DNA of 43,914 nt from a virus. A model generated the notes under the pieces. The model was not told where the DNA came from. It made no database searches and worked only from the letters and a program-made list of their open reading frames with translations. The position numbers were made by a program, and so were the translations under genes. The stretch covers positions 1 to 43,914 of the IMG/VR virus record IMGVR_UViG_3300005529_000061, one strand, 5' to 3'. Positions 4,839 through 36,006 of the stretch are shown one piece after another; positions within the stretch are counted from its first letter, which is position 1; each line of letters opens with the position of its first letter.

Positions 4839-4973
4839 AAGCGGTGGGGGAGTGGTTGCAAATTAATGTACTCAATTGAGGCTAGCACTCCCCCACTCCC
4901 CCGGTAGGGGAGTGGTCTTTTTGAGGCTAAAAGAAGAAATTAGGGGACACATAGGAAAGTAGGGGAGTGGGGC
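4839..4973. repeat. G-rich non-coding repeat island A
   Basis: Non-coding stretch between the glycan operon and terS containing GGGGAGTGG-type units: AAGCGGTGGGGGAGTG at 4839-4854, continuing as GGTTGC to 4859; an inverted pair at 4887-4902; GGTAGGGGAGTGG at 4903-4915; and GTAGGGGAGTGGGGC at 4959-4973. TTGAGGCTA occurs at 4876-4884 and 4921-4929. Matching 16-, 15- and 13-bp words recur in the same order at 42462-42533. Because it lies directly upstream of terS it could include the packaging (pac or cos) recognition region; this is an inference. Confidence 0.75.
4893..4922 (+). terminator. Rho-independent terminator within the G-rich island
   Basis: CCACTCCCC (4893-4901) and GGGGAGTGG (4907-4915) form a perfect 9-bp stem with a 5-base loop, followed by TCTTTTT. 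This would end transcription of the glycan operon before terS. Confidence 0.7.
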
Positions 4974-12267: not shown

Positions 12268-12330
12268 TATCTTGAATCGTAGGCTGTGTATCTCACTCAT
12301 ACCACAGCCTACAAGAGTGAGTTCAAGATA
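12268..12330 (+). promoter_or_regulatory. Intergenic RNA structure after the major capsid gene
   Basis: A nested fold has an outer stem (TATCTTGAA 12268-12276 with 12322-12330) and an inner perfect 10-bp stem (GTAGGCTGTG 12279-12288 with 12303-12312). The loop word CTCACTC (12292-12298) is also complementary to GAGTGAG (12315-12321), giving a competing fold. There is no T-tract, so it is more likely an mRNA stabiliser, a processing site or a modulator of read-through than a simple terminator. Confidence 0.65.
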
Positions 12331-13318: not shown

Positions 13319-13816
13319 ATGGCAGATAACATGAATTTTACATTACAAATTAAAGGGCTTGAGGAATTTGTTAATGATTCCAAGCGGGCAGGGCTGAATG
13401 TTAAGCCTATGATGACACAGGCCATGCAGAGGGCAACCTTGAAGGTCAAGAATGCCATTCAGGAAAACATTACCGCTAAGGGTATTACCTTTCAGGGATC
13501 ATTGAGGAGATCAGTACAGGTCAACCAAGCCACATGGGATAAGGGTGTGGTTGGCGTTGGGGAAAAATATGGCTCTGTTGTTGAAGCCGGAAGAAGACCC
13601 GGTGGCAAAATGCCTCCAGTCAAAGCTATAGAGCGTTGGGCAGAAATTAAATTGAATGCAAAAGGTGCTGGCTTTGTTATAGCAAAAAAGATTCAAAGGC
13701 AGGGAACCAAGGCACAACCATTTGTAGAGCCGGCATTTAGATCTGAAGCACAATATGTTGTTGATCAATTTGGTATTGCCGCCAATATGATCATGAGTCA
13801 AATGGCAGGAAAATAA
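13319..13816 (+). CDS. HK97 gp10-like head-tail joining / tail completion protein
   Basis: A 165-aa protein with the family pattern: an N-terminal LQIKGLEEFVNDSKRAG, a helix MTQAMQRATLKVKNAIQENI, then GSLRRSVQV, VVGVGEKYGSVVEAGRRPGG and the C-terminal GTKAQPFVEPAFRSE. These match HK97_gp10/tail completion proteins. It acts at the neck of the virion. It starts directly at the end of the preceding gene. Confidence 0.88.
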   Translation: MADNMNFTLQIKGLEEFVNDSKRAGLNVKPMMTQAMQRATLKVKNAIQENITAKGITFQGSLRRSVQVNQATWDKGVVGVGEKYGSVVEAGRRPGGKMPPVKAIERWAEIKLNAKGAGFVIAKKIQRQGTKAQPFVEPAFRSEAQYVVDQFGIAANMIMSQMAGK

Positions 13817-13894
13817 TGTTATTCTATATGTATGAGCTTACTTTTACTATTCAATTGGATCTTGGTAGAGACTACAAGTCCAGAGGAGGTATCC

Positions 13895-14329
13895 ATGGCT
13901 AGTCAAATTGTTGATGTGTCGGGAGCAATTGCTACCAAAATGCGTGGTGTTTCAGGCATTCAGGATGTCTATGAGTACGAGATTGATAAGCCAACGGGGG
14001 GAAGATACCCTTTTGCTACAGTAACGCCCCAAGCCTTTTCTGGTGAGTTTGGCGATACTATACGTAACTTAAGGACATACCAGATAGCAATTAGAGTTTA
14101 TCAGGAGCGCACAGCAACCGGTGCTGGCAATCAGAAGGCAGAGCGTTTAATTAGAGAAATGACTGATGAGATTTTAACTGCATTTGATATGGACACTACC
14201 CTTTCAGGCATGATGAAGTATGTACGCCCAGTGCATGGAGATCTAAGCTACATTGATAGAGAAATTGGAGATACACGAGTTGCAGAGTTTATTCTTGATT
14301 GCGTAAATGTGGTTCCATCTGTAACATAA
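13895..14329 (+). CDS. Tail terminator protein
   Basis: A 144-aa protein starting at ATG 13895, which has AGAGGAGG 6 bp upstream. The in-frame ATG at 13832 would add a leader beginning MSLLLLF that lacks a ribosome site; the gene at 24116 opens with the same words. The core has TVTPQAFSGEFGDTIRN, RTYQIAIRVYQERT and a final RVAEFILDCV, consistent with a tail terminator that caps the tail tube and joins the neck. Position before the major tail protein supports this. Confidence 0.72.
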   Translation: MASQIVDVSGAIATKMRGVSGIQDVYEYEIDKPTGGRYPFATVTPQAFSGEFGDTIRNLRTYQIAIRVYQERTATGAGNQKAERLIREMTDEILTAFDMDTTLSGMMKYVRPVHGDLSYIDREIGDTRVAEFILDCVNVVPSVT

Positions 14330-14343
14330 AGGAGGTGAGCATT

Positions 14344-14577
14344 ATGGTTAAATCCAAATCACAAGAAAAAAGAGAAGCAATAGTTAATGAAGCAGAAGAA
14401 AAAGAAGAACCAAAGGAGGAAAAGAAATCTTTGGTAACATACATTGGCCCCGGAGGGCTGAATGGAACATACCTTTTTAAAGAGATTGCCGGGTCAATTA
14501 CTGCTTCTTCAGAAGAAGAAGCCAAGGCAAAAGCAGAGGAGATTGCTATAAAGCATCCCTCATTGCTTATTAAATAA
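14344..14577 (+). CDS. Small charged protein before the tail tube gene
   Basis: A 77-aa protein starting at ATG 14344 behind a strong AAAGGAGGTGAG site. The first 30 residues are a Lys/Glu helix. The rest (LVTYIGPGGLNGTYLFKEI, then ITASSEEEAKAKAEEIA) looks like a small alpha/beta domain. No family is recognised. It may be a minor structural or chaperone component. Confidence 0.6.
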   Translation: MVKSKSQEKREAIVNEAEEKEEPKEEKKSLVTYIGPGGLNGTYLFKEIAGSITASSEEEAKAKAEEIAIKHPSLLIK

Positions 14578-15615: not shown

Positions 15616-15674
15616 TTGGTAGGGGTTGGGTTCTTTAGTCGCTTATCTTACCTAACCCCTACCAATAAAAGATA
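15616..15674 (+). promoter_or_regulatory. Long hairpin after the major tail gene
   Basis: TTGGTAGGGGTT (15616-15627) pairs perfectly with 15654-15665 and extends three more pairs (15628-15630 with 15651-15653, one G-U), giving a 15-bp stem with a 20-base loop. A loop word TATCTT (15644-15649) is complementary to AAGATA just downstream (15669-15674). No T-tract follows. The architecture parallels the structure after the capsid gene. Confidence 0.65.
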
Positions 15675-15692
15675 GGCGGAAGGAGGTGCAAT

Positions 15693-30335: not shown

Positions 30336-30391
30336 AAAAGGGAGAGATGCGGAAGGTTTGGGCAGGGCTGGATTCATCTCTCCCTTTTATT
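30336..30391 (+). terminator. Strong rho-independent terminator of the late region
   Basis: AAAAGGGAGAGATG (30336-30349) pairs perfectly over 14 bp with 30375-30388, whose end is TTTT followed by ATTT. The 25-base loop is G-rich. Bases 30266-30335 hold no gene. It separates the late structural/lysis transcript from the following region. Confidence 0.85.
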
Positions 30392-30397
30392 TCCCTA

Positions 30398-30425
30398 TTG
30401 CAATTAATAAAAAAAGTAGTAAAAT
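30398..30425 (+). promoter_or_regulatory. Promoter of the accessory region
   Basis: TTGCAA (30398-30403, 4 of 6), 16 bp, TAAAAT (30420-30425, 5 of 6). Initiation is predicted near 30432, just before the structured leader. Confidence 0.55.
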
Positions 30426-30438
30426 ACAATTAAATTAG

Positions 30439-30513
30439 TCAGCTTCCAGAAATTTAAGCCCTTTTTCACATCGGCTTCTGCTGGAAGCTGAGCCGAGTTG
30501 AAAGAGGGTTTTT
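30439..30513 (+). promoter_or_regulatory. Switch-like leader with two exclusive folds before the nuclease gene
   Basis: Fold A pairs TCAGCTTCCAG (30439-30449) with CTGGAAGCTGA (30481-30491), 11 bp. Fold B pairs 30456-30468 with 30499-30511 (two G-U pairs) and, after a 2x2 internal loop, TCGGCT (30471-30476) with AGCCGA (30491-30496). The 3' arm of fold A is the loop of fold B, leaving no linker, so they cannot coexist. Fold B buries the GAGGG ribosome site of ATG 30514 and is followed by T5, so it could block translation or end transcription; fold A frees the site. Confidence 0.6.
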
Positions 30514-30861
30514 ATGATATTTATTCCTGATTTAAAAAGACTGCCTGAAGTAAATATTCAAGCTGAAATTTATCATCAATGCAAACTTCTTAATATCCAC
30601 TGCATCTTAGAATTGCGCCTCAAAACTTATAGACCCGATATAATTATATTCAAAAACGATCAAATCATAGGAATTATAGAGGTTAAAAATCATGTAAGGG
30701 ATTACTCTAACCGACCAGAATCTAAACAAGCTATAAAATATAAATCATTGGGATACCCCTTTTACCTCTGCAAAAATTTAAATGACATTCCACAAACAAT
30801 GAAAATTATCCAAGACTGGATTAATTTACCAGAACCCGACCACAGAGGCATCTCCGGATAG
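30514..30861 (+). CDS. PD-(D/E)XK nuclease
   Basis: A 115-aa protein with a compact nuclease core: RPDIIIFKNDQIIGIIEVKN places Asp at 42, then Glu56-x-Lys58, the PD-(D/E)XK pattern; an earlier Glu (18) may complete the site. The size fits VRR-NUC or Holliday-junction-resolvase-like nucleases. In a phage it could resolve branched DNA before packaging, degrade host DNA or act in homing. Its leader is highly structured, and a possibly structured RNA overlaps its last codons. Confidence 0.75.
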   Translation: MIFIPDLKRLPEVNIQAEIYHQCKLLNIHCILELRLKTYRPDIIIFKNDQIIGIIEVKNHVRDYSNRPESKQAIKYKSLGYPFYLCKNLNDIPQTMKIIQDWINLPEPDHRGISG

Positions 30862-31045
30862 GGAGTCCATGAAACACAGGACTATAAATAAAAGTGTTCC
30901 GGAAGCAAGAGGTGATAGCTGAAACTTCAAAGGGTAAGCTATACGGGCCTTCGTCAGAGCCAAGCTCGTCATTAGAGTGATACTCCGAAAAGAGAAACCT
31001 CTTTGATAAGAATCTGATGCCATATTTTTATATTCTTATTGACCC
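30853..31045 (+). ncRNA. Possible structured RNA downstream of the nuclease gene
   Basis: Between the nuclease stop and the gene at 31125 no convincing gene is seen, but helices are dense: TCCGGA (30853-30858 with 30898-30903) around AGTCC/GGACT (30864-30868, 30879-30883); ATAGCT/AGCTAT (30915-30920, 30937-30942); CGTCAGA (30952-30958) with TCTGATG (31013-31019) around GAGT/ACTC (30975-30978, 30982-30985) and AAAGAG/CTCTTT (30989-30994, 30999-31004); and TCTTATTG/CAATAAGA ending near 31052. GAGCCAAGC recalls a group I intron J6/7-P7 element, but no R element was found. The class is unknown. Confidence 0.35.
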
Positions 31046-31124
31046 AATAAGAGGCTCCTGCGTTGCTTTAAGGGTAAGATAGATTAGATTAATTTTTAGA
31101 AGAAAAATTAAAAATAAAAAGAAT

Positions 31125-34371: not shown

Positions 34372-36006
34372 ATGAACTATAAACTTTTAACATTTAAGAA
34401 AGAAGCGAGAGAAAAGTTAGCGGCAGGCGCTGACAAACTGGCACAGGCAGTAGTTTCTACTCTTGGGCCAAGAAGCAGGAATGTAGCTTTAAATAGATCC
34501 TATCCAGCTCCTTTAATTCTTCATGATGGTGTATCCATAGCAAAAGAAATTCAATTGCGAGATCCATTTGAGGATATGGGAGCAGTTCTTTTACGGGAAG
34601 CAGCTTCTAAAACGAATGATCTTGCCGGTGATGGCACTACAACGGCAACTTTACTTGGTAACACCTTAATACAAGAGGGGTTTAAACTAACCGAGGGAGG
34701 AGTGGTTGAGGGTGTTATCACTGGCAAGATCAATCCAATGAAGCTTCGTGAGGATCTGATGGCCTATGCTGACATTATTATTAAGAAGCTTGAGGAAAAA
34801 ACAATCCCCGTTAAAAAGAAAGAGGAATATCAACAGGTAGCCACAATCTCTTCTGCATCCCCAGAAATAGGAAAACTTGTAGCAGATGCTCTTGAAAAGG
34901 TTGGTAAAGAGGGCGTTATCATGATTGAGGATAGTAATAGCTTTGAGTCAGCCCTTGAGTTTCAGGAAGGCATGGAGTTTGAAAATGGCTTCCTTTCCCC
35001 TTACTTTGCTACAGATCCCGATAAAATGATTGCTGAATATAAAGATGGCTATGTTCTTATGACTGATAAAAAGATTTCAGATCCTATGGAAATAGTCAAT
35101 ATTGCAGATCAGGTTATAAAAGATGCCAACAAACCTCTTCTTATTATTGCTGATGATGTAGTAGGAGCAGCGTTGCAATCATTGGTATTAACAAAGCTTA
35201 GGATCAATGCCGGACTTGTGGCAGTCATTGCCCCAGAGTTTGGAGAGCGTAGAAAAGAAATGCTTGAGGATATTGCTGTTTTGACAGGAGGCAATGTTAT
35301 TGCCAAGGATCTGGATAAGAAATTGCCGGATGTCAAATTGGGAGAGCTTGGTAGATTTAGAAGTATCAAGGTTTCTCAAACACATACAAGCATTACGCCA
35401 CTCAATCCCGATGCAGAGGAAATTACTGAAAGAGTCAATGCAATCAAAACACAAATTGATGCAGAGGAAAATGCATTTAAGAAAGAACGCCTTGAATATC
35501 GGTTGAGTAAACTTTCCCAAGGAGTGGCAATTATTACTGTTGGTGGTGGTTCTGCTTCTGAAATAAAAGAAAAGCGGGAAAGAGTTATAGATGCGGTCAA
35601 TGCTACCAAGGCAGCTATGGCAGATGGCATTGTAGCAGGTGGTGGGATTGCATTATTGGAAATTGCAGAGGAATTAAGTAGAGATGCCAAGAAAGATGAT
35701 TTAGCCTTTAAGCTTGTGTATCAGGCGATTACAGCGCCTTTCAGAACTATTATTGAAAATGCCGGGGAAAATCCTGATAGTGTTTTAAAGCATATGGCAG
35801 CGTTGGAAGGCACAAATGTAGAGAATCGTGGCTATGACATTGTTGGCAGAAAAGTAGGGGATATGATCAAAATGGGTATTACTGATCCGGTAAAAGTAAC
35901 CAAACTTGCAATACGACATTCATTTTCTGTTGCGTCAATGATGCTTACAACGGATACATTGGTAACAGATCCTTATGAAGACGATAACAAAAAACAAACT
36001 GCATAA
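34372..36006 (+). CDS. groEL: Chaperonin GroEL (phage-encoded)
   Basis: A full-length 544-aa group I chaperonin. The ATP site is intact: Asp52 in HDGVSIAKEI, GDGTTTA at 86-92, and Asp407 in VIDAVNATKAA, equivalent to the catalytic Asp398 of E. coli; VAGGG at 421-425 is also kept. Apical hydrophobic helices that bind substrate and GroES are retained (around 208-212, 240-250, 263-275). The Gly-Gly-Met tail is absent; the protein ends in a charged DPYEDDNKKQTA. No groES gene is found. A few phage GroELs are known to work without GroES. It probably folds phage proteins such as the capsid or glycan enzymes. Confidence 0.95.
   Translation: MNYKLLTFKKEAREKLAAGADKLAQAVVSTLGPRSRNVALNRSYPAPLILHDGVSIAKEIQLRDPFEDMGAVLLREAASKTNDLAGDGTTTATLLGNTLIQEGFKLTEGGVVEGVITGKINPMKLREDLMAYADIIIKKLEEKTIPVKKKEEYQQVATISSASPEIGKLVADALEKVGKEGVIMIEDSNSFESALEFQEGMEFENGFLSPYFATDPDKMIAEYKDGYVLMTDKKISDPMEIVNIADQVIKDANKPLLIIADDVVGAALQSLVLTKLRINAGLVAVIAPEFGERRKEMLEDIAVLTGGNVIAKDLDKKLPDVKLGELGRFRSIKVSQTHTSITPLNPDAEEITERVNAIKTQIDAEENAFKKERLEYRLSKLSQGVAIITVGGGSASEIKEKRERVIDAVNATKAAMADGIVAGGGIALLEIAEELSRDAKKDDLAFKLVYQAITAPFRTIIENAGENPDSVLKHMAALEGTNVENRGYDIVGRKVGDMIKMGITDPVKVTKLAIRHSFSVASMMLTTDTLVTDPYEDDNKKQTA

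Follow-up and report, generated by a model that had tools for sequence, protein, structure and literature searches.

The 43.9-kb virus record analysed here over its whole length (the window) carries a leader RNA element at positions 30439-30513. On its 5' side are lysis genes, then a hairpin resembling a terminator, and on its 3' side is a 115-aa nuclease gene. This terminator-like hairpin (30336-30388, plus strand) is formed by AAAAGGGAGAGATG and CATCTCTCCCTTTT, an exact inverted repeat of 30336-30349 with 30375-30388 that is followed by TA-TTT, and is likely the terminator of the upstream late/lysis operon, setting the leader apart from that operon. A possible promoter, TTGCAA-16-TAAAAT (30398-30425, plus strand), would start transcription about 7 nt ahead of the leader's first strand. 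The claim of an earlier note on this DNA that a promoter lies just before the folds was not confirmed, as the consensus match is weak (9/12) and matches of that quality are not above chance in 7 kb (23 observed versus 19.7 expected).

The leader consists of four plus-strand segments in the order S1a-S2a-S1b-S2b, followed by T5 and the start codon. S1a (30439-30449, TCAGCTTCCAG) is the 5' strand of an early 11-bp helix, S1, and its exact complement S1b (30481-30491, CTGGAAGCTGA) lies inside the apical loop (30478-30489) of a long hairpin, S2 (30456-30511). The 5' strand of this hairpin, S2a (30456-30477), includes the anti-Shine-Dalgarno segment CCCTTTTT, and the 3' strand, S2b (30490-30511), contains the Shine-Dalgarno (SD) sequence AAAGAGGG (30501-30508), which S2 buries. 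The U-tract (30509-30513) directly abuts both the S2 stem and the ATG at 30514. S1 comprises 11 exact pairs and S2 22 layers including a 2x2 internal loop. Both the 11-bp helix and the longer SD-hiding hairpin ending in T5 were thus found where the earlier note had put them, two alternative folds do head a transcription unit, and the 3' strand of one is indeed the loop of the other. The mutual exclusion it had proposed holds in nested folding but not as strand competition: S1 and S2 have only 1-2 bases in common, hence the exclusion is topological and steric.

The gene that follows (30514-30861, plus strand) probably encodes a PD-(D/E)XK-type nuclease, as judged from Pfam, a modelled fold and Foldseek. 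Its Pfam matches (AHJR-like, HSDR_N and MmcB-like) are weak and all below the cut-off, the single-sequence structure model predicts the order H-E-E-E-H-E-H of helices (H) and strands (E) with a pLDDT of 64.5, and the best sensible Foldseek matches, none of them significant, are VRR_NUC domains and I-Bth0305I. Homologues of the nuclease were found neither in viral contigs, phages, plasmids and genome contigs nor in the records of the relatives, so covariation could not be traced via this gene and relatives were gathered instead via capsid, terminase and tail proteins. A search of host genomes with the capsid protein gave no match, and for ORF 31641 no relatives were found in viral contigs.

Further features of the window were recorded. 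The nuclease gene is followed by a gap of approximately 263-264 nt without an ORF (30862-31124), which is missing in the relative G011; it showed no Rfam match, no group I intron or other known RNA, and a fold z-score of -1.3 at best. A chaperonin GroEL is encoded at 34372-36006 (Cpn60_TCP1, E 1.5e-56). Repeats of the GTGGGGGAGTG type cluster in both orientations at 4844-4914, just 5' of the terminase genes, perhaps as a packaging or origin site. Gene order is circularly permuted between the window and both a 15.5-kb contig and the 43.8-kb G011.

Recurrence of the layout in related phages

For the 101-nt stretch the folding energy is -33.4 kcal/mol versus -21.1 ± 3.2 for its shuffles (z -3.8), and 1 of 200 shuffles was as good. 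Exact 11-nt inverted repeats within 70 nt occur on average 0.8 times per shuffled window, and therefore one such repeat is expected somewhere in 44 kb; S1 by itself is only marginally unusual and constitutes weak evidence. The joint score of S1 and S2 reached 65.5, whereas the window shuffled 100 times by dinucleotides gave at best 52 over both strands. With S2 taken as given, 3 of 20,000 shuffles had 11 nt complementary to its loop in the 60 nt upstream.

We scanned 2.09 Mb of fetched phage DNA for the layout, and the window, G011 and two copies in a further relative, L150, were the top 4 of 433 matches. A second scan, in which terminator-like hairpins in 1.3 Mb of clade contigs were ranked by upstream complementarity to their loops, placed the same four first and added one element in L241. 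The leader sample thus comprises five elements in four records, on contigs that are fragmentary. All four strong elements belong to one phage clade. Each has S2 and a T-run, with an ATG immediately after in three of the four and also in L241. Two weak candidates with an S1 of only 6 nt (L182 at 11996 and L229 at 7292) were not counted, and a candidate of 8 nt on the L195 minus strand was dropped for its low complexity. No tRNA or tmRNA was found near the leader elements.

G011 (IMGVR_UViG_3300005683_000023) is 71% identical to the window in terminase, 84% in capsid and 57% in portal. At the homologous locus a DnaD-like gene stands in place of the nuclease and has the same leader layout directly 5' of it: AGCAGCCGG, 20 nt, a 22-layer hairpin with the loop CCGGCTG(CT), T7 and ATG. 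In L150 (47% identity in a tail protein, 51% in capsid), the two copies have the S1a sequences TGAGTTGAAGC and TGAGTTTCGAC; the long hairpin that goes with each, ending in GGGGATTTT or GGGGATTTTTTATG, has the exact 11-nt complement as part of its loop. The TGAGTTTCGAC copy is preceded by a good promoter match, TTGACA-17-TATTCT, from which the RNA would begin at S1a. A 16-codon ORF and a terminator follow one L150 copy and no real ORF follows the other. The L241 element is weaker (AATTGTTGC/GCAACAATT) and runs via TTTATG into an MT-A70 methyltransferase. The leader was said to control a nuclease gene, which is true of its position in the window, but other genes follow it in the relatives and the nuclease is not its constant partner. 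CCCTTTT and an A-G-rich SD at the S2 base are present in three of the five elements; the S2b strands of G011 and L241 lack a recognisable SD, thus SD hiding is not general.

Several other features of L150 adjoin these copies. The 16-codon ORF MLTDKQQSLETSNKDD (14494-14545), 3' of copy D, has its stop codon within the next intrinsic-terminator-like hairpin, as in leader-peptide attenuators. A free-standing HNH gene (13533-14012) adjoins both copies and matches the HNH portion of IscB below threshold (E 4e-10, 39 bits versus a cut-off of 175). The stretch 14196-14355 between the copies is tRNA-like, with a 7-bp acceptor-like GCAGAGG/CCTCTGC and a D-arm-like start, and was not called by ARAGORN.

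The outcome that the earlier note named as refuting, a lack of compensatory changes in homologues, was looked for and not obtained. The order S1a-S2a-S1b-S2b is kept in the relatives with other letters, and when the two L150 copies, C and D, are compared, 4 of the 11 S1 pairs differ, each of them in both partners, with no one-sided change. Relative to the window, 7 pairs (copy C) and 4 pairs (copy D) differ, again all two-sided. With only five elements in four phages, the covariation rests on few independent events. The same changes bear on the idea that S1a and S1b are DNA half-sites of a looping or promoter repressor, the RNA folds being secondary. In the window and in the L150 elements S1a does lie where transcription likely starts or just past that point, and the sequences vary between phages as immunity operators do. 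However, the two L150 copies share one genome and would meet one repressor, yet 4 of their 11 positions are not the same and each copy has an exact complement of its own, which makes a sequence-specific DNA-binding protein a poor explanation; moreover, in every element S1b coincides with the loop of a strong hairpin ending in a T-run. We therefore consider such half-sites improbable.

It could also be argued that nothing more than a common intrinsic terminator is present in S2, or a static hairpin hiding the ribosome binding site (RBS) like those of T4 homing endonuclease genes, and that the upstream complement of its loop arose by chance. Static RBS-hiding hairpins are well documented for phage endonucleases (PMC2988022), and S2 is strong without S1. 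Nevertheless, given S2, the upstream loop complement was met in only 3, 12, 18, 5 and 283 of 20,000 shuffles in the five elements, and the strong four are confined to one clade, leaving this explanation with little credit.

Folding order and access to the Shine-Dalgarno sequence

To growing transcripts we applied nested folding of the RNA alone, that is, without pseudoknots, proteins or real transcription speed. In all five elements the full S1 was present from completion of S1b until shortly before the U-tract, whereupon S2 won. The final fold of the window leader reached -31.9 kcal/mol versus -24.9 with S1 enforced, and the corresponding values of the other four elements were -39.9/-29.8, -39.8/-26.0, -40.4/-26.7 and -21.8/-12.6, so that S2 is finally favoured by 7 to 14 kcal/mol. 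The mean unpaired probability of the SD in the window rose from 0.001 to 0.32 once S1 was enforced; across the window and L150 elements it rose from 0.001 to 0.29-0.54.

We propose that the segment 30439-30513 forms a bistable leader RNA that works in cis as a folding-time switch, with S1 as the early and S2 as the final state, a reading that we hold with slightly better than even confidence. During transcription S1 would form first, because both of its strands are synthesised ahead of S2b. Once S2b emerges, the more stable S2 would displace S1 and conceal the SD; with its GC base, U-tract and start codon S2 is terminator-like in make-up and might perhaps also stop transcription. The gene would then probably be expressible only briefly after synthesis, or only while S1 is held, and otherwise be shut. 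The two states would control expression by termination, by a translation block or through RNA decay, and the state may be set by folding time or by a factor on S1a. Since the relatives retain the arrangement with altered letters and ahead of different genes, the leader probably represents an intrinsic folding switch that has so far not been catalogued.

The strongest alternative is a composite pseudoknot lock: S1 would be present together with S2, or with only its lower half, as a constitutive or protein-operated brake, and nothing would be switched. The 5' end would be stapled to the hairpin loop, locking the SD and the start codon, and might be shielded from decay. In its favour, S1 and S2 are not strand competitors, the S1a-S2a linker in G011 is 20 nt long and S1b exactly fills a short loop there, which allows coexistence, and each lower half of S2 remains stable without its upper half (-12 to -16 kcal/mol). 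Against it speak the L150 and L241 elements, whose S1a-S2a linkers have 0-2 nt with a few further unpaired bases and on geometric judgement look too short for a full S2 (15-22 layers) together with a full S1 (9-11 bp), and the 11 bp of S1, which far exceed the length that a pseudoknot stem needs. Such a lock is thus rather unlikely, though it deserves more weight than the other alternatives. S1 and the lower half of S2 may possibly coexist as a pseudoknot within the folding-time switch as well; the SD would still be hidden and the on-state weakened.

The leader had been labelled riboswitch-like, and two alternative folds, one with the SD and terminator-like features, are what a ligand-binding riboswitch would present. 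The five elements, however, have no conserved core, beyond the two helices there is no room for an aptamer, and Rfam gave no match to the window, with none near gathering score around the leader and nothing meaningful in the L150 region at E ≤ 0.5. Since both a conserved core and an Rfam match are absent, a ligand-binding aptamer is unsupported, and we regard a riboswitch as very improbable indeed.

Interleaved elements elsewhere in the clade

A second interleaved element lies directly 3' of the capsid gene (window 12268-12330), where strands in the order P1a-P2a-P1b-P2b (P1, 12279-12288/12303-12312; P2, 12292-12298/12315-12321) are enclosed in a closing stem P0 (12268-12276/12322-12330). P1 is here both the earlier and the more stable helix, and no Rfam match was found for the element. 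Its layout is present in about half of the distinct relatives (18-22 of 39): exact helices of at least 7 were found in 18 of the 39, with none of 390 shuffles coming near, and a combined score of at least 57 in 21 of the 39, the maximum of 195 shuffles being 36. Six relatives with equal spacing, picked for showing the layout, had 162 of 162 cells paired, a percentage biased by that choice, and two-sided changes in 22 of 27 pairs, a variety that the choice leaves unbiased; the controls gave 11.4 ± 2.0 in shuffles and at most 10 when slid. This element possibly helps to stabilise the capsid mRNA or to regulate the gene that follows. Given its presence in the relatives, interleaving characterises the clade and is not confined to one leader.

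Similar arrangements were noted at other places. In the window, TTGGTAGGGGTT/AACCCCTACCAA interleaves with CGCTTATCTT/AAGATAGGCG at 15616-15678, before ORF 15693 and its SD AAGGAGG, and at the matching place in G011 GCTGTGGGG/CCCCACAGC interleaves with TCGCTTGTTTT/AAAACAAGCGA. L199 and L171 have similar interleaved layouts approximately 3 kb 3' of the capsid gene.

We tentatively suggest, as a conjecture less probable than its negation, that the clade uses an undescribed RNA type made of long interleaved helices A-B-A'-B' with near-zero linkers, constrained in layout only, which would act as a switch at gene starts and would also occur after the capsid gene inside a closing stem. If so, this would be a minimal, ligand-free timing device in which the order of RNA folding sets gene expression, and selection would preserve the layout but leave the letters free to drift. 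Sequence-based searches and nested-structure models would miss elements of this sort, hence many may have gone unnoticed. Standard RNA probing could test the idea directly on the capsid-gene element, which occurs in 18-22 of 39 relatives and has 22 of 27 pairs covarying in the aligned subset.

Comparison with known leader RNAs

RBS-hiding hairpins are known from the T-even phage homing endonuclease genes I-TevI, I-TevII, I-TevIII, segB and Aeh1 mobE, in which a late promoter inside the hairpin supplies the alternative state (PMC2988022). As in those genes, the SD of a phage nuclease is here buried in a stable hairpin directly 5' of the start codon, and an SD within the stem is common to the window and both L150 elements (unpaired probability 0.001). 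In contrast to them, an upstream strand of the leader pairs with the loop, and the relatives' layout precedes non-nuclease genes.

Helicobacter type I toxin mRNAs such as AapA3 form metastable co-transcriptional hairpins (PMC6733600). With AapA3 the leader would share a transient early hairpin that precedes the final fold and times SD access. Nevertheless, the transient hairpins of AapA3 hide the SD against premature translation (PMC6733600), whereas the early hairpin of the leader frees the SD more and the final hairpin conceals it.

The description of the leader as an attenuator or translation switch agrees with its alternative folds, hidden SD and U-tract. Like trp and r-protein leader attenuators it has an early antiterminator-like helix and then a hairpin with a U-tract, and in all five elements a run of T4-T7 comes directly after S2. 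It departs from the classical attenuator in that no strand is shared: the helices of classical attenuators share a strand (1:2, 2:3, 3:4), while those of the leader pair 1:3 and 2:4 with an overlap of 1-2 bases, and its start codon abuts the U-tract. The 1:3 and 2:4 topology is that of H-type pseudoknots in leaders, such as T4 gene 32, preQ1 and SAM-II, and the leader elements share this pairing. Unlike H-type pseudoknots, they have helices of 9-11 and approximately 15-22 layers joined by near-zero linkers, and in most of them the two helices look too long for full coexistence.
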